Shown here: one piece after another, positions 2,871 to 23,405 of the stretch
Numbering within the stretch: position 1 is the stretch's first letter
Layout: each line of letters opens with the position of its first letter
Assembly (NCBI GenBank): GCA_023150845.1
Contig: JAKLKD010000120.1
Location: forward strand, 1 to 40,328
Reading direction: 5' to 3'
From: Myxococcota bacterium
GTDB taxonomy: Bacteria > Myxococcota_A > UBA796 > CAJQPC01
Length of the DNA stretch: 40,328 nucleotides
The notes under the pieces: model-generated
The model's database searches: none
Told to the model about the DNA's origin: nothing
What the model saw: only the letters and a program-made list of their open reading frames with translations
Program-made: the position numbers and the translations under genes

Positions 2871-2950
2871 GAGAGGATCCTCGGGCCGGGAGCGGGCGGG
2901 GAGGCACGCCGTCGGCGACGGGGTGAGCGAGGGGGAGGGCGGCTGGACAG

Positions 2951-3249
2951 GTCCGGATGGTTCGCGGAGATTCCGTTAGGTCGTATGGACGCGTCCGGAT
3001 GAGTGGCGGAGATTTCCCCAGGTCGTATGGACGCGTCCGGATGAGTGGCGGAGATCCCACAGGTCGTATGGACGCGTCCGGATGGTTCGCGGAGATTCCG
3101 CCAGGTCGTATGGACGCGTCCGGATGAGTGGCGGAGATTTCCCCAGGTCGTATGGACGCGTCCGGATGAGTGGCGGAGATCCCACAGGTCGTATGGACAC
3201 GTCCGGATGGGTGGCGGAGATCCCACAGGTCGTATGGACGCGCCCAGAC
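2951..3249. repeat. 41/42-bp tandem repeat array with higher-order A-B-C organisation
   Basis: Units share the core GGTCGTATGGACGCGTCCGG and begin at 2979, 3021, 3062, 3104, 3146, 3187 and 3228. A partial unit starts at 2951, and the last copy decays by about 3249. Spacing is 42, 41, 42, 42, 41, 41. The second half of each unit has three variants: A (TTCGCGGAGATTCCG), B (GTGGCGGAGATTTCCCCA) and C (GTGGCGGAGATCCCACA), in the order A-B-C-A-B-C-C. This implies a 125-bp segment that was duplicated. Each unit carries the 10-bp palindrome GGACGCGTCC. The mix of 41 and 42 bp breaks any reading frame, so it is non-coding. It lies in the 600-bp divergent gap between 2709 and 3310; the rest of that gap shows only the 2838 hairpin and the 3274 promoter. 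Confidence 0.9.
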
Positions 3250-3309: not shown

Positions 3310-3702
3310 ATGTCAACCTGGCTTCCTTGCGTACCCGCCAACTGCCCGCCCGCCGAGGCTCGACCCGCCGAGGGCGTGGTGTTCCGCGTGACGGACGGGG
3401 AGACGCCCGCTCCGCGAGACTTCGTCCCGATGCGGCTTGAGCGCCCTGAGCAGAGCTTCGTGGGGAGAGAGTGTCTGGCGGCGGGGCTCTCCGTGTACAA
3501 GCGGCGGCGGGACCTTGAGCGCCTCAAGAGCTACCCGACCTTCCGGGGGCGGTCGCTCTGGGTGGCCAAGGCGGAGCTGTCGCCGGACCACGGGGTGCTC
3601 TTGGCGACCCCGCCAAAGGCGATCCGCAACTCCCACCACACCTGGTGGTGGCCGAGCGCGCTGACCCCCGAGTCGCTCTTCTCTTCGGACGGCGCGCTGT
3701 GA
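3310..3702 (+). CDS. Small protein of unknown function, first of an overlapping pair
   Basis: The 130-residue product has no signal peptide or membrane segment. Recognisable points are a charged RRRDLERL stretch near residue 65 and a His/Trp-rich motif SHHTWWWP near residue 108. I do not recognise a named domain. Its TGA overlaps the GTG start of the next gene by 4 bp, so the two proteins are almost certainly made together and may act as partners. The ATG lies 8 nt after a -10-like element with no ribosome-binding site, which suggests leaderless translation. The gene follows directly after the tandem repeat array. Confidence 0.7.
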   Translation: MSTWLPCVPANCPPAEARPAEGVVFRVTDGETPAPRDFVPMRLERPEQSFVGRECLAAGLSVYKRRRDLERLKSYPTFRGRSLWVAKAELSPDHGVLLATPPKAIRNSHHTWWWPSALTPESLFSSDGAL

Positions 3703-4904
3703 ACCTCAACCTGCCGCCGCGCGGGCTCCTCGGGGAGCTGACGCTCTTGGAGGTCTTCGATCTCTACGAGGAGCCCATCCTGTTCTCTTGCCGCTCGGCG
3801 AGGGGGGAGCGGTACGTCGGGCTCCTCTGCGCCTCGGACGACGCGCGGCAGGCTTGGCTCTACGCGCCGATCTCCCCGGCGCGTCTTGAGGAGCTCCGGT
3901 CGGGGCGGCTCACCACCTACGACCTGTTTCGAGAGGTCGAGGGGGGAGACCTGGCCTACGTCTCGCGGAGCCGTGAGGCGTCGGGAAGCGCGGGCTGGAG
4001 CGTCGAGTGGGTGATCGCCGCCGAGGTGGATGACGCCCTCCTGCCGACGCCGGGGGTGTCGCTGGAGCTTGAGCCCGAGGAGGCGCGGGGCGAGGACACG
4101 CTGCCCGACCTGAGCGCCCTCGCGGCGCAGGGCCGCCGAGACGTGCTCGCGCTGCGGCTCGTGCTCCCCGACCGTGACGACCACGAGGCCCCGGCCTCTC
4201 TGGTGGGGGCGGTGCTCAGCGGGGTCCAGCACGTCGTCAACGCCATCGGGCAGGCGGTGCTCGCCCGGCCCACGACGCGCGCGCCAATCCCCGTCTCGGT
4301 GCTCAACGACTGCCAGCTCAGCGTCACCGGCGTCTTCGCCGGGTCCTTTGGCGTCACCTTGGGCGGGGCGGGTTCGTCGGACCACTCCCACACGACCAAG
4401 TCTGGGCCCATCTTTGAGCAGCTCTTTAAGCTCCTGTCGGTCACCCAAGACCCCGCGGCGCTGCGGGAGCAGCTCGGGGCCCTCGGGGGGCGCCTGCCGA
4501 ACAAATACAGAGCCTTGCTCTCGACGCTCGGCGCGGTGGAGCGGTTTGAGCTCGGCTGGGGGGCGCCCTCGGGCGGCCCGGCGCGCCGGGCGGCCTTGGG
4601 GCGCGCCGAGGTCGCGACGGGGGTGCGGGTGCTCACGAGCTACACGACCTTAGCGCCTCAAGAGTTCACCGTGCTGGCCCGGCTCATCGGCCTCAACCTG
4701 CGCACCAAGTCCTACGAGCTGCACGATGAGTCGGAGGGCGCGCGCTACGTCGGGCGCTTCGTAGACGCCGTGTCCCCGGCGGCGAGGGTTGCCCGCCTGG
4801 GCGAGCTCTACTTCGCCGTGCTCCAAGACATCCCCGAGGAGAGCGCCGGAGGGGCCGTCGAGCAGCGCCAAGAGCTCTTGGCGCTCGCTCCGGCCGTGGA
4901 CTAG
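3699..4904 (+). CDS. DUF6575-like protein of unknown function
   Basis: The 401-residue product begins at the GTG at 3699, which overlaps the TGA of the preceding gene (GTGA); the frame is open a little further upstream, but only inside that gene. Residues 8-70, around LLGELTLLEVFDLYEEPILF and the following Trp-Leu-Tyr segment, resemble the start of DUF6575-type proteins, whose biochemical role is unknown to me. The middle (about 160-270) looks like a separate alpha/beta segment and the C-terminus is helical and Leu-rich. No catalytic motif, signal peptide or membrane segment is visible. It converges with the gene at 4911-5480, with only 6 bp between stops. Confidence 0.75.
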   Translation: MNLNLPPRGLLGELTLLEVFDLYEEPILFSCRSARGERYVGLLCASDDARQAWLYAPISPARLEELRSGRLTTYDLFREVEGGDLAYVSRSREASGSAGWSVEWVIAAEVDDALLPTPGVSLELEPEEARGEDTLPDLSALAAQGRRDVLALRLVLPDRDDHEAPASLVGAVLSGVQHVVNAIGQAVLARPTTRAPIPVSVLNDCQLSVTGVFAGSFGVTLGGAGSSDHSHTTKSGPIFEQLFKLLSVTQDPAALREQLGALGGRLPNKYRALLSTLGAVERFELGWGAPSGGPARRAALGRAEVATGVRVLTSYTTLAPQEFTVLARLIGLNLRTKSYELHDESEGARYVGRFVDAVSPAARVARLGELYFAVLQDIPEESAGGAVEQRQELLALAPAVD

Positions 4905-5870: not shown

Positions 5871-6040
5871 GGTGTTGAGAGAGCGACCGGGGCCAGGGGG
5901 CGCCGGGTGCGGAGAGCCGCACAAGAAGAGTTTGGCGGATGCGGCGATCAAGCGCAAGAGGGGAGGGGTGAAAAAAGTTGGGGGGTGGGATGCGGGGGAG
6001 CGGAGCGGGCGGGGGCTGGCGGTTTAGGCAACAGGTCCGC

Positions 6041-6060
6041 TATACTCCCCGGCGCGGAGG
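6041..6060 (+). promoter_or_regulatory. -10 element and ribosome-binding site of the HNH gene
   Basis: TATACT (6041-6046) is a near-consensus -10 hexamer; no good -35 is seen at the usual distance. GGAGG (6056-6060) lies 4 nt before the GTG at 6065 and decides that start over upstream in-frame ATGs. Confidence 0.55.
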
Positions 6061-6064
6061 TGCC

Positions 6065-7291
6065 GTGGACACGCTGTTCTTGGAGCGGATGTTGTTGTTG
6101 CTCAGCCAGGGCAGCTTCACGACGACCTACAAATACGCCCTGCTCTTGGCGCTGATTGACTTGAACGTCGAGGGCGCCGGGCGCGGCGGGCCGGTGTCGT
6201 CGGTGACCACGCGGCAGCTCGCCGAGCGGGTGATCGTGCTCTATTGGCCCCACACCCGGCCTTACGCGCGGCGGCGGGCGGCGCTGCGGCGGCTCATGGC
6301 GTCGCGCCCGCTCACCCCGCACCTGCGGCGGGCGGGCCGCCCCAAGGCGCTCCAAGACGCCGGGCGCGCGCTCCTTCAGTCCACGACCTCCCACAAGCGC
6401 GGGCGGTCCCAGGCGGAGATCGTGTCGAAGATCGCCGACCTCCGCGCCGCCGTGCGCCGGATCGATCCCCGCGCCGACCGCCGCCCACACCTCGCCCAGC
6501 GCGCCGACCCCAAGGGCTTTGAGCGCCTCGTGCGGGAGGTCGAGTGGGTGCTCGCCGAGAAGCCCATCCCCCGGCTGCAGGTCGTCGGCCGCCTCCACGA
6601 GCCCTTTTTGTACCGCCTCGACTGGACGATTGAGCAGTCCAAGGGGCGCTTGATCGAGCCCGGCCTGCCCAAGCTCACCGAGCGCGCGCTGCGTGACGGC
6701 TCGCTCTCCAACGCCCTCACGCTCCTGCCCGGCGTGCACGAGCGGCTCGTGTCGCTCTCGGCGGTGCTGCGCCCGCTAATCCACCGCCACTGGTCGGACA
6801 TGGTGGCGCGGCTCAACGCCCTGCCCGAGCGCCACCTGGAGTCGTTCTTGTTCGGGGCGTCCCGGGCGTCTCTGGCGCCTGTGCGTGAGCCGCTGTGGTC
6901 GCTCCAGGGCGGGCGCTGCTTCTATTGTGCTCGCCGCGTGGCGCTCAGCGACGCCGAGGTGGACCATGTGCTGCCCTGGTCACGCCTCGCTGAAGACGGC
7001 CTGGAGAACCTCGTGGTCGCCTGCGCCGACTGCAACAGCGCCAAGTCCGACCTCTTGCCCGGTCGCGAGGCCGTCTTGCCTTGGCTCGGGCGCCCGGCGG
7101 CGGGGCTCACGCGGACCAGCGAGGCGACGGGCTGGCCCCTCGCCCGTGACCGTGTGCGGTCCACCTGCGCGGTGGTCTACCGCCAGCTCAGCCCCGGCGT
7201 GCCCGTGTGGCGCGGCGGCGGCGACGTGGGGCGCCTCACTGAAGACGAGCAGCGGGAGATCCTCACGGCCCTCGGGCGCCTTGAGGACTAG
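6065..7291 (+). CDS. HNH endonuclease with a large N-terminal domain
   Basis: The 408-residue product starts at a GTG with GGAGG 4 nt upstream. The first 250 residues form a helical domain of unknown function, with a TTTYKYALLLALIDL motif near residue 20. The C-terminal third holds an HNH nuclease: the zinc-knuckle Cys pair CFYC (285-288), Asp300-His301 in VDHVLPWS, Asn315, and the second Cys pair CADC (320-323) followed by NSAKSD. This is a complete beta-beta-alpha-metal site, expected to cut DNA with a divalent metal. It is followed on the same strand, about 100-145 bp later, by a DGQHR protein, so the two probably form one module, perhaps restriction or phage defence. The substrate is unknown. 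No maturase or phage terminase context is present. Confidence 0.85.
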   Translation: MDTLFLERMLLLLSQGSFTTTYKYALLLALIDLNVEGAGRGGPVSSVTTRQLAERVIVLYWPHTRPYARRRAALRRLMASRPLTPHLRRAGRPKALQDAGRALLQSTTSHKRGRSQAEIVSKIADLRAAVRRIDPRADRRPHLAQRADPKGFERLVREVEWVLAEKPIPRLQVVGRLHEPFLYRLDWTIEQSKGRLIEPGLPKLTERALRDGSLSNALTLLPGVHERLVSLSAVLRPLIHRHWSDMVARLNALPERHLESFLFGASRASLAPVREPLWSLQGGRCFYCARRVALSDAEVDHVLPWSRLAEDGLENLVVACADCNSAKSDLLPGREAVLPWLGRPAAGLTRTSEATGWPLARDRVRSTCAVVYRQLSPGVPVWRGGGDVGRLTEDEQREILTALGRLED

Positions 7292-7335
7292 CCGCCCGAT
7301 CGTGTGAGGTTGCCGGATCTGCCACAATCGGCGGC
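7291..7335 (+). other. Inverted repeat just after the HNH gene
   Basis: GCCGCCCGAT (7291-7300) and ATCGGCGGC (7327-7335) pair with one bulged base around a 26-nt loop. There is no T-run. It could weaken read-through from the HNH gene into the next gene or be an operator. Confidence 0.25.
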
Positions 7336-7386
7336 GCCGAATGGTGCGTCGGCGACGGGCTGAGTAAGGGGCGAGGGGAGGTGACG

Positions 7387-7461
7387 ATGCCCCTGCTGCT
7401 GCGCCCCAAGCCCACGTTCACCCTGAGCCTGCGCGTGTGGAGACCTTTCAGACCCACTTGA
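7387..7461 (+). other. Possible 24-codon leader ORF, or displaced true start of the DGQHR gene
   Basis: The ATG at 7387 has the best ribosome-binding site in this gap (GGGGAGG, 6 nt upstream) and encodes MPLLLRPKPTFTLSLRVW and a few more residues before TGA at 7459-7461. It overlaps the first codons of the DGQHR gene in another frame. Its product joins smoothly to that protein if the frame shifts inside GCGCGTGTGG (7431-7440). It may therefore be the true N-terminus separated by an indel, or a coupling leader. Confidence 0.35.
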
Positions 7462-9590
7462 GGCTCTCGTTCAAGCTCGACGACGATGAGCGCCTCCTGC
7501 GCGCCCTCTCCCCCGTGCGTGAGGTGTTCAACCTCAAAGACCTCGACTTTGAGCAGCTCATGCAGCGGGACATCGACGACGCCCGCGTCGCGACGGAGCT
7601 GATCCCCTACCTGCTGGAGGAGAGCCGGTCCGGCCTCGTCAAGCTGTTCCCGCCGATCATCGTCGTCGTGCTGCCCGTGAACGATCAGAAGCTCCCGGCG
7701 GATCATTACCCGACCGTGCAGAGCGGCGACGAGGACGACGGCGAGGGCAACACCTGGCACACCGAGCGCTCCGGGGAGCTGGGCCAGGAGGTGTTTGAGC
7801 TCCGCCAGCTCGTGCAGGACGGCGAGCGCTGGGACCACGACTACGCCCGTCTCAAGCTCAACACCGGCCGCTCGGCCCTGGTGATCGTGGACGGTCAGCA
7901 CCGCGCCATGGCGCTCATCGCCATGTACCGCAACTGCACCAAGTGGCCCGACAACGCCCGGGCCGTGGAGCCTTACTACAAGCTGTGGTCCCGCTCGGTG
8001 ATTGAGCGATACGACCTGGACGAGGTCAAGCTCCCGGTGATGTTCTGTGTGTTCCCCGAGCTCGACGGGCGCGACCCCGACCAGATGCCCGTGCATCAGG
8101 CCTGCCGGGCGGTGTTCTTGGCGCTGAATAAGAACGCGCGGAAGGTCACCCGGGCGCGAAACTTCCTGCTGGATGACCGCGACATCGTCAGCTCGTTCAT
8201 GCGCTCGGTGCTCACCGACATCAAGGCCAGCTCCGACATCCACTCCAAGTCCACGCTGCGCCTGTGGAACGTCGAGCTCGACTCCGACGCCGACCGCACC
8301 GCGCTCAACGCCGACACGGCCATCACCGGGGTCACCCACCTCTATGGCCTCATCGAGCGCATCACCCTGCGTGGGAACCCCTTGGAGCGCCTGAACGCCC
8401 CGAGCAGCGCGGGCCGTAAACAGACGACCCTTGAGGCCTGCTTCCGCCGCCTCGTCGTCGAGGATCTGCTCTCCCGTGTGACGCGGGACGAGGCCCGCCG
8501 CGACACCTGCGACCCAGCGACGGAGGCGATCCTCGTGCGGGCGTTCAGCGAGCGCTTCGGCAGGCTCCTCGTGCGGGGGCTGAGCGACTTCGCCCCCTAC
8601 GCCGCGAACAATGAGGCGGCCTTGCTCATCCACCGCCAGCTCGACGCCGGGGCCACGGCGGAGTTTTATCGCACCATCCTCTTTGAGGGCCAGAGCATGG
8701 ATCAGGTGTTTGAGTCCCACGTCGAGTGGCTCAAACAAGAGATGAAGAGCCCCGGGCGCCTGCGCAGCCCCGAGCTGCGCGCGGTGAAGACCGACTTTGA
8801 CGGGCGCGTGAAGGAGCTGGAGGTGTGGCGCCAGCGGCTCGCCAGTGAGCGCATCAACAACCTCTTGGGGAGCGTGCCCGAGCATGTGCGTGAGTCCCCG
8901 AGCGTGCGGCGGACCCTACACGAGCTGCACACCCGCACCTTCACCACGGCGGCCTTTCAGAGCGCGCTGTTCATCACCTTCTTCGCGGCCATCGAGCGTG
9001 AGAACGAGCGCCGCTCCAAGCCCCCCGAGGTGCTCGACCCGCTGACCGCGGCTGAGGTCGAGGCGCTGTTTGATGAGTACCTGCGCCAGGTGAACGAGCT
9101 GTTCGCGCCGACCAAGCTTGAGCGCCTGGAGCGGCTGTTGTTGGTGCTCGTGGGGCGGCTGGATGTCGAGGGCAAGTCGGCGACGGTGACGCCGTGGACC
9201 GAGTGCCTCCGCCACATCCTCATCCCCGGCGAGCTGAAGCCCGACGAGTGGTCCAAGTTCCGCTTCATGTTCGCCGAGCTGTGGCAGCCCAAGGAGCACC
9301 CCGAGCTCAAGGATCAGCTCACCCGGCTGCGTGTGGCTCTGCGGAAGCAGGCCCTGGACGCCTACGTCACCCGCAAGGTGAAGGAGCACGCCCAAAACCT
9401 CGGCGTGCCCATCGCCCGCCTCGACCTCGCCGACGTGGAGCGCCTGCGCGCCGAGTGTGTGGACCACATGACCACGGGGATCCGTGCGCTGCGCAACCTG
9501 AGCGACAAGAACACCGAGCGCCTGCGCGACGAGCTGACCCGCTCCTTGGACCTGCCCGAGACCAACGCCGTCGAGGAGATGGACGGCTGA
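7437..9590 (+). CDS. DGQHR-domain protein (DndB-like)
   Basis: The 717-residue product carries the motif VDGQHR (residues 151-156) within a ParB/DndB-like fold, followed by VFLALNKNARKVTRARNF (226-243), the second hallmark of DGQHR proteins. This family includes DndB of phosphorothioate DNA modification and DpdB of deazaguanine DNA modification, where it acts with modification or restriction partners. The C-terminal 350 residues are helical with long charged stretches and no recognised domain, so the protein is larger than a typical DndB. The GTG at 7437 has no Shine-Dalgarno sequence, whereas an out-of-frame ATG at 7387 does; the start may be wrong or frameshifted. No dnd, dpd or ssp modification gene is present nearby. 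Pairing with the HNH nuclease suggests a stand-alone DNA-targeting module; this is inference. Confidence 0.8.
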   Translation: METFQTHLRLSFKLDDDERLLRALSPVREVFNLKDLDFEQLMQRDIDDARVATELIPYLLEESRSGLVKLFPPIIVVVLPVNDQKLPADHYPTVQSGDEDDGEGNTWHTERSGELGQEVFELRQLVQDGERWDHDYARLKLNTGRSALVIVDGQHRAMALIAMYRNCTKWPDNARAVEPYYKLWSRSVIERYDLDEVKLPVMFCVFPELDGRDPDQMPVHQACRAVFLALNKNARKVTRARNFLLDDRDIVSSFMRSVLTDIKASSDIHSKSTLRLWNVELDSDADRTALNADTAITGVTHLYGLIERITLRGNPLERLNAPSSAGRKQTTLEACFRRLVVEDLLSRVTRDEARRDTCDPATEAILVRAFSERFGRLLVRGLSDFAPYAANNEAALLIHRQLDAGATAEFYRTILFEGQSMDQVFESHVEWLKQEMKSPGRLRSPELRAVKTDFDGRVKELEVWRQRLASERINNLLGSVPEHVRESPSVRRTLHELHTRTFTTAAFQSALFITFFAAIERENERRSKPPEVLDPLTAAEVEALFDEYLRQVNELFAPTKLERLERLLLVLVGRLDVEGKSATVTPWTECLRHILIPGELKPDEWSKFRFMFAELWQPKEHPELKDQLTRLRVALRKQALDAYVTRKVKEHAQNLGVPIARLDLADVERLRAECVDHMTTGIRALRNLSDKNTERLRDELTRSLDLPETNAVEEMDG

Positions 9591-9604
9591 GCGCCGCCGC
9601 CCCC

Positions 9605-19984: not shown

Positions 19985-22414
19985 ATGCTGCAATCGAACG
20001 AGAACCAGTCCGACCTCTCCCACGACCTGTCCGCCGGGCCTACGGTGCGCCTCAAGGCCCCCGACGGCTCCTTGCGCCCCCTGAGCGTCGACAACCTGCA
20101 CACGCTCTTGGCGCCGATGGGCGTGGGCCTGGAGCAGCTCGACCTCCGGCGCTTCGCCGATCGGGTCTTCGCCGGGCTCTACGACGGCGTGAGCGAGTCC
20201 GAGCTCGACCGCCTGCTCGTGCAGGTCAGCTCCGGCCTCATCGCTGAAGAGCCCGACTGGGCCCAGCTCGCCGCCCGCCTGCTAAACCGGGTGCTCGTGA
20301 AGGAGGTCCGCGCCCAGGGCGTGCGCACCTTCTCCGAGTCCATCCGCCTCGGCCACCGCGAGGGCCTCATCTCCGACGTCACCGCGGCCTTCGTGAACGA
20401 GCACGCCGCCGTGCTCGACGCCGCCATCGACGACCGCCGCGCCGAGCTCTTCCTCTACTTCGGCCTGCGCACGGTCTACGACCGTTACCTCCTGCGCCAC
20501 CCCATCACCCGCAAGGTCACCGAGACCTCGCAGATCTTCTTCATGCGTGTGGCCTGCGGCCTCTCCCGCACGCCCGAAGAGGCCATCGAGCTCTACCGCC
20601 TCATCTCCTCTTTGGAGTACCTGCCGTCGAGCCCCACCCTGTTCAACGCGGGCACCCGGCACAGCCAGATGTCGAGCTGTTACCTCCTGGAGTCCCCGAC
20701 GGACGACCTCGAGGGCATCTACCAGCGCTACACCGACATCGCGAAGCTCTCCAAGTTCGCGGGCGGCATCGGCGTGGCCTGGCACCGGGTGCGCGCCCGG
20801 GGCTCCCTCATCCGGGGCACGAACGGCCAGTCCAACGGCGTCGTGCCGTGGCTCAAGACGCTCGACGCGTCCGTCGCCGCGGTGAACCAGGGCGGTCGGC
20901 GCAAGGGCGCGTGCTGCGTGTACCTAGAGAGCTGGCACGCCGACATCGAGGAGTTCTTGGAGCTGCGCGACAACACCGGCGACGAGGCCCGCCGCACCCA
21001 CAACCTGAACCTCGCCAACTGGGTCCCCGACCTGTTCATGAAGCGGGTCCAGGCGGACGAGGACTGGTCGCTCTTTGACCCCAAGGTCGTGCCCCACCTC
21101 GTCGATCTCTACGGCGACGCCTTCGAGCGGGCCTACGTCGAGGCCGAGCGCGCGGGCAAAGCCATGCGCTCGGTGAAGGCCCGGGATCTCTACGGCCGCA
21201 TGATGCGGACCTTGGCCCAGACCGGCAACGGCTGGATGACCTTTAAGGACGCCTGCAACCGCAAGGCGAACCAGACCGCCCTGCCCGGCGCCGTGGTCCA
21301 CTCCAGCAACCTCTGCACGGAGATCGTCGAGGTCACGAGCCAGGGCGAGACGGCGGTGTGTAACCTCGGCTCGATCAACCTCGCGCGTTTTGTCGTCGAC
21401 GGCGCCTTCGACTTCGACAAGCTCTCGGACTGCGCCCGGGTCGCCGTGCGGTTCTTGGACCGCGTCATCGACATCAACTACTACCCCACCCCTGAAGCCG
21501 CCGCGTCCAACAAGCGCTGGCGCCCCGTGGGCCTGGGCGTGATGGGCCTCCAGGACGTGCTCTTCCAGCTCCGGCTGCCCTTTGATGGCGACGAGGCCCG
21601 GAACCTCTCCACACACATCCAGGAGGAGATCTACTACGCGGCGCTGTCCGCCTCCGTCGAGCTCGCCGAGGCCGAGGGCGCCCACCCGAGCTTCGACGAG
21701 ACCCGCGCCGCCCGGGGCCAGCTCCAGTTTGACCTCTGGGGCGTGAAGCCCGGCGCCAACCGCCAGGGCCAGCTCGGCCTCTTCGGCGCCGACCCGGCCC
21801 GGCGCTGGGAGGCCCTCAAGGCCCGCATCGCCCAGCACGGCCTGCGCAACTCCTTGCTCATCGCCATCGCGCCGACGGCGACCATCGCCTCCATCGCGGG
21901 CTGCTACGAGTGCATCGAGCCCCAGGTCTCGAACCTCTTCAAGCGCGAGACGCTCTCCGGCGAGTTCTTGCAGGTCAACCGTTACCTCGTGGACGACCTC
22001 AAGCGTATCGGCATGTACACCGAGTCTGTGCGTGAGCAGATCAAGGCCGGTGAGGGCAGCATCCAACACATCGAGACCTTGCCCGCCGAGCTGCGTAACC
22101 TCTACCGCACGGCCTGGGAGCTGCCCCAGCGGGCGCTCATCGATCTGGCCGCCGACCGCTCGCCCTACATCGATCAAGCACAGTCGTTGAACCTCTTCAT
22201 GGCCGAGCCCACCATCGGCAAGCTCAGCTCGATGTACGCCTACGCCTGGAAGCGTGGCCTGAAGACGACCTACTACCTGCGCTCTCGCCCGCGCACCTCC
22301 ATCGCCAAGACCGTCACCTCCGCCGCCGCGGCCACGCCGACGGCCCCGGTGAAAGACTCCGCCGCCATCGCCTGCTCCCTTGAGAACCCCGAGTCCTGTG
22401 AGGCCTGCCAGTGA
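19985..22414 (+). CDS. nrdA: Ribonucleoside-diphosphate reductase class Ia, alpha subunit
   Basis: The 809-residue product reduces ribonucleoside diphosphates to deoxy forms with the beta subunit. Residues 18-105 look like an ATP-cone, the dATP/ATP activity switch, though its usual KRDG start is degenerate (KAPDG). Active-site residues are all present: redox Cys232 (SSCYLL) and Cys459 (AVCNLGS), the Asn442-x-Cys444-x-Glu446 triad (NLCTE) with the thiyl-radical Cys, Tyr763-Tyr764 (TTYYLRSR) of the radical relay, and a C-terminal CEAC pair (805/808) that passes electrons from thioredoxin. The ATG at 19985 has TGAGG 7 nt upstream; the longer frame from 19709 is leader sequence. The stop overlaps the nrdB start (GTGA). 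Confidence 0.96.
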   Translation: MLQSNENQSDLSHDLSAGPTVRLKAPDGSLRPLSVDNLHTLLAPMGVGLEQLDLRRFADRVFAGLYDGVSESELDRLLVQVSSGLIAEEPDWAQLAARLLNRVLVKEVRAQGVRTFSESIRLGHREGLISDVTAAFVNEHAAVLDAAIDDRRAELFLYFGLRTVYDRYLLRHPITRKVTETSQIFFMRVACGLSRTPEEAIELYRLISSLEYLPSSPTLFNAGTRHSQMSSCYLLESPTDDLEGIYQRYTDIAKLSKFAGGIGVAWHRVRARGSLIRGTNGQSNGVVPWLKTLDASVAAVNQGGRRKGACCVYLESWHADIEEFLELRDNTGDEARRTHNLNLANWVPDLFMKRVQADEDWSLFDPKVVPHLVDLYGDAFERAYVEAERAGKAMRSVKARDLYGRMMRTLAQTGNGWMTFKDACNRKANQTALPGAVVHSSNLCTEIVEVTSQGETAVCNLGSINLARFVVDGAFDFDKLSDCARVAVRFLDRVIDINYYPTPEAAASNKRWRPVGLGVMGLQDVLFQLRLPFDGDEARNLSTHIQEEIYYAALSASVELAEAEGAHPSFDETRAARGQLQFDLWGVKPGANRQGQLGLFGADPARRWEALKARIAQHGLRNSLLIAIAPTATIASIAGCYECIEPQVSNLFKRETLSGEFLQVNRYLVDDLKRIGMYTESVREQIKAGEGSIQHIETLPAELRNLYRTAWELPQRALIDLAADRSPYIDQAQSLNLFMAEPTIGKLSSMYAYAWKRGLKTTYYLRSRPRTSIAKTVTSAAAATPTAPVKDSAAIACSLENPESCEACQ

Positions 22415-23405
22415 ACACTCCCCGCCGCGACGTGATCGCCGAGACGACGCCGATGATCTTAGACCCTGGCTTCAACCTGACCTTACGCCCGATGCGTTAC
22501 CCGGGCTTCTATGAGATGTACAAAGACGCGATCGCGAACACCTGGACGGTGGAGGAGGTGGACTTCTCCCAAGACATCAGCGATCTGCGTGAGAAGCTGA
22601 GCCCGGCGGAGCGCCACCTCATCAACCGCCTCGTGGCCTTCTTCGCCACGGGCGACAGCATCGTCTCCAACAACCTCGTGCTCAACCTCTACAAACACAT
22701 GAGGCGCTGCACGTCCAGTTCTACCTCACCCTGCTCGACACCTACATCCCCGATCTGCACGAGCGGGAGCAGGCCTTCGCGGCGGTGGAGAACATCCCCA
22801 GCGTGCGGGCCAAGGCCGAGTTCTGCTTCAAGTGGATGGACAGCGTCCACCACCTCGACCGCCTTGAGACGAAGGCCGACCGCCGCGCGTTCTTGATGAA
22901 CCTCATCTGCTTCTCCTGCTGCATCGAGGGGCTCTTCTTCTTCGCGGCCTTCGCCTACGTCTACTTCTTACGCTCCAAGGGCCTGCTCAACGGCCTGGCC
23001 TCGGGCACGAACTGGGTGTTCCGCGACGAGAGCGGCCACATGCGCTTCGCGCTGGAGGTCGCCCGCACCGTGCGCAGCGAGGAGCCCGACCTCTTCGACG
23101 ACGCGATGCGCCGGGACGTCGAGCGCATGATCCGCGAGGCCGTGGACTGTGAGATGGTCTTCGCCAACGACCTCTTGAGCCAAGGCGTGGCCGGCCTCAG
23201 CCCCCAGGACGTGCGCACCTACCTCGAGCACGTCGGCGACCAGCGCCTCATGAACCTCGGCCTCGATCCCATCTTCGGCGCCGCGAACCCGTTCCCCTTC
23301 ATGGACCTGCAGGACATGGTCGGCCTCGAGAACTTCTTCGAGCGCCGCGTCTCCGCGTACCAGATCGGCGTGACGGGTGAGGTGAGCCTGGACGAGGAGT
23401 TTTAA
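22411..23405 (+). pseudogene. nrdB: Ribonucleoside-diphosphate reductase beta subunit, interrupted by a frameshift with missing sequence
   Basis: The first frame (22411-22700, GTG start overlapping nrdA) encodes a normal NrdB N-terminus to SNNLVLNLYKH, including the expected first metal ligand Asp in FFATGD. The family then normally continues through about 16 residues (an INAPEAR...LFEE segment) into EALHVQFY. Here EALHVQFY follows at once from 22701 in a different frame, which stays open to 23405. That frame contains the other ligands and the radical Tyr: Glu and His of EALH, Tyr of HVQFY, Glu of CIEG, and Glu and His of RDESGH. Roughly 46 nt appear to be missing, not a multiple of three. 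Every other part looks functional and under selection. Since the enzyme is usually essential, a sequence or assembly error, or a very recent mutation backed by another copy, is likely. Confidence 0.85.

Follow-up and report, generated by a model that had tools for sequence, protein, structure and literature searches.

In this study, we analysed a stretch of 40,328 nucleotides (hereafter, the window; contig JAKLKD010000120.1, assembly GCA_023150845.1) from a Myxococcota bacterium and found a gene coding for an HNH nuclease directly followed by a gene coding for a long DndB-like protein. As judged from genome comparisons, this pair behaves as a unit inside one genus and not outside it. The reading that we tentatively favour is that the two genes make up a compact defence cassette that targets DNA, an NTPase-regulated nuclease built from parts of phosphorothioate (PT) defence systems. 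The HNH protein would be the nuclease or nickase of this cassette, and the long DndB, a predicted ParB/sulfiredoxin-fold NTPase with a DGQHR motif that would bind DNA and nucleotide, may restrain or license it, distributing over two genes the division of labour known from GmrS/GmrD, SspE and DndI. Under this scheme, the two proteins would be physical partners, cleavage would be gated by NTP, and the cassette would act against phages and distinguish self from foreign DNA.

The HNH gene (6065..7291, + strand) codes for a protein of 408 amino acids and begins with a GTG codon that, together with its GGAGG Shine-Dalgarno sequence, is conserved in a sister genome of the same genus. The protein comprises an N-terminal TTTYKYALLLAL helical region, a mostly helical central part and a C-terminal Cas9-like HNH domain bearing zinc cysteines, D300-H301, N315 and N324. 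An initial annotation, made from the sequence alone, had described a complete HNH site fused to a helical domain, and both features hold. Residues 285-332 match the Pfam families HNH (E 5e-10) and HNH_4 (E 3e-9), the residues D300-H301, N315 and N324 are invariant among the 12 homologues aligned, and a structure model of moderate confidence (pLDDT 57.6) shows chiefly helices in the remaining sequence. The D-H-N-N arrangement is the pattern of HNH nickases. A fold search with the model retrieved chiefly Cas9 and other HNH domains, none with E <0.001. Against full-length Cas9 and IscB models, the HNH domain alone matches (25-38 bits versus cut-offs of 100-375), and we rejected the identification of this protein as a Cas9 or IscB, that is, as a RuvC plus HNH enzyme. 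A sulfur-binding domain (SBD) at the N-terminus was also rejected, as hhalign comparison of the HNH family with an SBD-HNH profile gave a probability of 0.2%. In phage records, the HNH nuclease finds only HNH-domain matches and the long DndB has no match. Upstream of the HNH gene, a TATACT hexamer and the Shine-Dalgarno sequence are conserved with the sister genome, which constitutes weak evidence for a candidate promoter of the pair at 6016..6064 (+ strand); a sigma-70 scan called no promoter at this site. Further upstream, the window carries some 7 units of a 42-bp tandem repeat where no gene was recognised (2944-3242), and codes for a protein (3645-4904) that matches DUF6575 (Pfam E 2e-14), one of the families to which no function has been assigned.

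The second gene (7387..9590, + strand) was delimited by Pfam matching, by alignment with seven other long DndBs and by analysis of a deletion near its start. It lies on the same strand as the HNH gene, and the spacer between the HNH stop codon and the likely original DndB start (7292..7386, 95 nt) contains no terminator-like site, which supports the cassette reading. The open frame, annotated initially as a DGQHR protein of 717 residues, extends from 7437 to 9590. Its DGQHR motif (residues 152-156) and its Pfam DndB match stand, but its start is doubtful, as it uses an internal GTG codon (7437) with no Shine-Dalgarno sequence. The match to PF14072 (E 7e-7, 29.1 bits) falls exactly at the curated cut-off of 29.1, and the NCBIfam DGQHR model matches only below its cut-off. 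Moreover, D152-R156, Q43-R44 and F227/N231 are invariant among the eight aligned long DndBs, so that the DGQHR, QR and FxxxN motifs and the profile match together place the protein in the DndB family. The structure model (pLDDT 42.6) is too poor for use; in consequence, no complex with the HNH protein could be predicted, a point that weighs against the cassette.

Comparison with the sister genome clarifies the doubtful start. There, the DndB start is intact and consists of an ATG codon (position 4547 of locus L026) behind GGAGGTGA, and the window has an aligned ATG at 7387 preceded by the same Shine-Dalgarno sequence, which is likely the original start. Relative to the sister genome, the window has lost 49 nt just before ~7435. 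This deletion breaks the frame opened at ATG 7387 after 16 codons, the frame ending at about codon 24, and removes the N-terminal GxxGxF strand conserved in other long DndBs; accordingly, the length of 717 amino acids is doubtful. Loss of both the proper start and a conserved strand, in a genome where no PT genes were found, would fit a decaying remnant of a lost PT locus that no longer functions in the window species. We regard this explanation as quite improbable, because the rest of the 717-aa frame remains open and constrained. In addition, nrdB, coding for the small chain of ribonucleotide reductase (22411-23405, same contig), is frameshifted by a similar deletion of 46 nt relative to the sister genome, in DNA that is otherwise near-identical. 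As nrdB is an essential gene, we suspect that the 49-nt deletion is an assembly error, which appears likelier than a true loss, and we do not read the DndB gene as dead.

The window protein belongs to a subfamily of long DndBs of about 600-775 amino acids, distinct from canonical DndB (about 390-400 amino acids); both forms occur together in one locus in genome G026 and in Nonomuraea. The C-terminal half, initially singled out as unusually long, turned out to be typical of the whole subfamily, being common to all eight aligned members. The Asticcacaulis protein, for instance, shares 35% identity with the window protein across 97% of the latter. We found long or mid-size DndBs in PT loci of Asticcacaulis, three cyanobacteria, Nonomuraea and several Myxococcota. 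In Asticcacaulis and the cyanobacteria, the loci include a cysteine desulfurase, DUF4007, an ATPase and a PAPS reductase, and in Myxococcota and Nonomuraea they include dndA, dndC and dndD, or Ssp genes. Elsewhere, the gene directly upstream of the long DndB is usually of GIY-YIG type (170-260 amino acids), and this pairing with a long or mid-size DndB recurs across phyla, mostly in PT loci (L011 7197-10160, L025 8957-11990, L036 560-3548, L037 6954-9443 and L038 7904-10360). In the window and in the sister genome, the HNH gene occupies the place of the GIY-YIG gene, without adjoining PT genes, and searches of both genomes as a whole detected no relative of GIY-YIG. The cassette probably arose when an HNH gene joined a long DndB of the kind that elsewhere accompanies a GIY-YIG nuclease inside PT loci. 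That PT-linked long DndBs usually have a nuclease gene directly upstream supports the cassette reading, as do the PT loci of Geminocystis and Cyanobacterium HL-69, where a distant HNH homologue and a long DndB lie within ~4 kb. In genome G114 (L035 347-3805), a PT-dependent SBD-HNH restriction gene adjoins a long DndB divergently, with an AAA ATPase gene downstream.

Signs that the pair is a unit come from the two related genomes. They share a homologous block (6016-9597 in the window) that begins 50 bp before the HNH gene, extends 7 bp past the DndB stop codon and has sharp ends. The right flanks of the pair differ between the two genomes, the kinases to its right in the window lying on another contig in the sister. 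The dN/dS values between the two genomes (0.29 for HNH and 0.17 for DndB) indicate purifying selection on both genes. A constrained block that is kept in two genomes with different right flanks supports the cassette. However, neighbourhood in other genomes, which the initial annotation had chosen as the test of its proposal, went against it. The HNH family is present in 38/379 genomes of the phylum and a full or mid-length DndB in 7/379, and in a count covering this phylum plus plasmids and viral contigs the two were adjacent in only 2 of the 38 HNH-bearing genomes, the window genome and its sister. A single GTDB-wide contig scan returned the sister genome only. As judged from the adjacency count, the pair is not a two-gene defence system conserved in unrelated genomes. 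At the level of whole genomes, 5/7 DndB genomes also carry the HNH family; this co-occurrence is not significant after removal of the genus and one partial hit (p = 0.07). In the HNH tree, the DndB-linked proteins form one clade of single origin, placed beside a lone paralogue of the window genome. Confinement to one genus and a single origin both speak against a cassette.

The wider HNH family also speaks against it. The paralogue in the window genome (L087 3823-5139) is 56% identical and stands alone, with neither DndB nor HIT neighbour, and the usual neighbour of the family is a HIT gene, whose identity was confirmed by Pfam. Among 20 HNH loci examined in Myxococcota, the HIT gene is directly upstream on the same strand in 12 and convergent in 2. 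Two betaproteobacterial plasmids have the same HIT neighbour, whereas in gammaproteobacteria a SAM methyltransferase gene lies upstream, some of these loci being near BREX, type I-F CRISPR or McrBC. A distant branch, homologous over residues 19 to 345 (hhalign 97.7%, E 2e-12), occurs in several Ssp-type PT loci. These HIT-HNH and methyltransferase-HNH neighbourhoods (HIT-HNH pairing or related contexts: L086, L088, L090, L093, L095, L096, L099, L100, L102-L105, L017 and L018) resemble the window in having the same HNH family over most of its length and defence-type contexts, and differ in the partner gene, with no DndB present; HIT-HNH is possibly an undescribed defence pair. Partners that vary (HIT, methyltransferase or none), the lone paralogue and adjacency in one genus are what would be expected of two independent defence genes, a stand-alone HNH nuclease and an orphan PT-type DndB, that became neighbours by chance. 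This explanation is nearly as likely as the NTPase-regulated cassette, although the block conserved in two species and the spacing and strand of the pair, which suit one operon, argue against it. The defence module proposed initially therefore survives in part: relatives of each gene sit in defence contexts, the long DndBs in PT loci and the HNH proteins with the systems and partners above, while the combination is not conserved outside one genus.

As first annotated, no modification genes were found in the scanned part of the window around the pair. The further suggestion that such genes lie elsewhere is borne out in the sister genome and not in the window genome. In the former, contig C154 carries DndC, DndD, a second DndD-like ATPase, a weakly DndE-like gene and an FtsK-type gene, unlinked to the pair. 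In the latter, a draft metagenome assembly of 444 contigs (95.7% complete), family searches found no DndC, DndD, DUF4007 or GIY-YIG gene. They detected only a PAPS reductase of CysH size (248 aa), and no DndD exceeded the cut-off, whereas DndC and DndD were both recovered in this way from the sister genome and from G026. DUF4007 (SspB, PF13182) was found in the positive controls G142 and G120 and in neither of the two genomes. DndC, DndD and DUF4007 are thus likely absent from the window genome, which probably has neither a Dnd system, with DndC and DndD accompanying DndB, nor an Ssp system. In a Dpd deazaguanine system, DpdB is accompanied by neighbouring DpdA and DpdC; no Dpd model matches the DGQHR protein, and each of the two genomes has two TGT-family genes, which may be of Tgt or DpdA type. 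The PT context of related DndBs, the unlinked DndC and DndD of the sister and the SBD-HNH neighbour in G114 would fit a PT accessory acting in trans, in which DndB would be a regulator or reader of PT, cleavage by the HNH protein would depend on PT status, and the modification genes would lie elsewhere in the genome. We consider this unlikely given the gene content of the window genome and the HNH protein lacking a detected sulfur-binding domain. The missing PT genes also count against the favoured cassette; in the sister genome, its self/foreign mark could be PT made elsewhere in the genome.

SspE joins a DUF262 ParB-fold NTPase to a DUF1524 HNH nickase, like GmrSD and DndI. The window pair resembles these enzymes in coupling a DGQ(H/Q)R NTPase to an HNH nuclease, a likeness of functional analogy only, and differs from them in its families: PF14072 and PF01844/PF13395 are among the Pfam matches of the two window proteins, and PF03235 (DUF262) and DUF1524 are not. 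A ParB fold and an HNH domain on one chain are established for GmrSD (PMC4619093) and DndI (PMC11662687), in which DGQ(H/Q)R ParB-fold NTPases control HNH nickases (PMC11662687, PMC4619093); GmrS and GmrD may also be encoded separately (PMC4619093), and fusions of ParB folds to HNH PF01844 have been reported (PMC12704722). These precedents support the cassette reading. Among the closest known systems are also the long DndB-like proteins of Dnd/Ssp PT loci, for example on the Asticcacaulis plasmids pASTEX02 and pASDW145_2, which have the extended C-terminal half and the motifs QR, DGQHR and FxxxN in common with the window protein; there, a GIY-YIG gene is upstream and PT modification genes adjoin, whereas the window has HNH upstream and no PT genes nearby. 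ScoMcrA-type SBD-HNH enzymes are similar in that an HNH nuclease lies near a long DndB in G114, but the window HNH has no detectable sulfur-binding domain. PADLOC models cover neither full-length family. Several kinds of nuclease, HNH and GIY-YIG among them, have already been described in the vicinity of Dnd genes (PMC10853773), and we found no description in the literature of an HNH-long DndB pair without PT genes, which is a variant of these known Dnd-linked nuclease arrangements.

A bolder version, to which we give only a small chance, is a two-gene restriction system that works independently of PT: the long DndB, as an NTPase, would gate the Cas9-like HNH nickase, and self would be told from non-self without a PT mark; the pair would then be one of several nuclease-swapped long-DndB cassettes (GIY-YIG, HNH and possibly SBD-HNH). 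The role of DndB is itself disputed, as it has been considered a repressor, an ATP sink or a nuclease (PMC10853773). Long DndBs are repeatedly encoded behind a nuclease gene and can move out of PT loci in the company of another nuclease, which suggests that they may control nucleases, and not transcription only.
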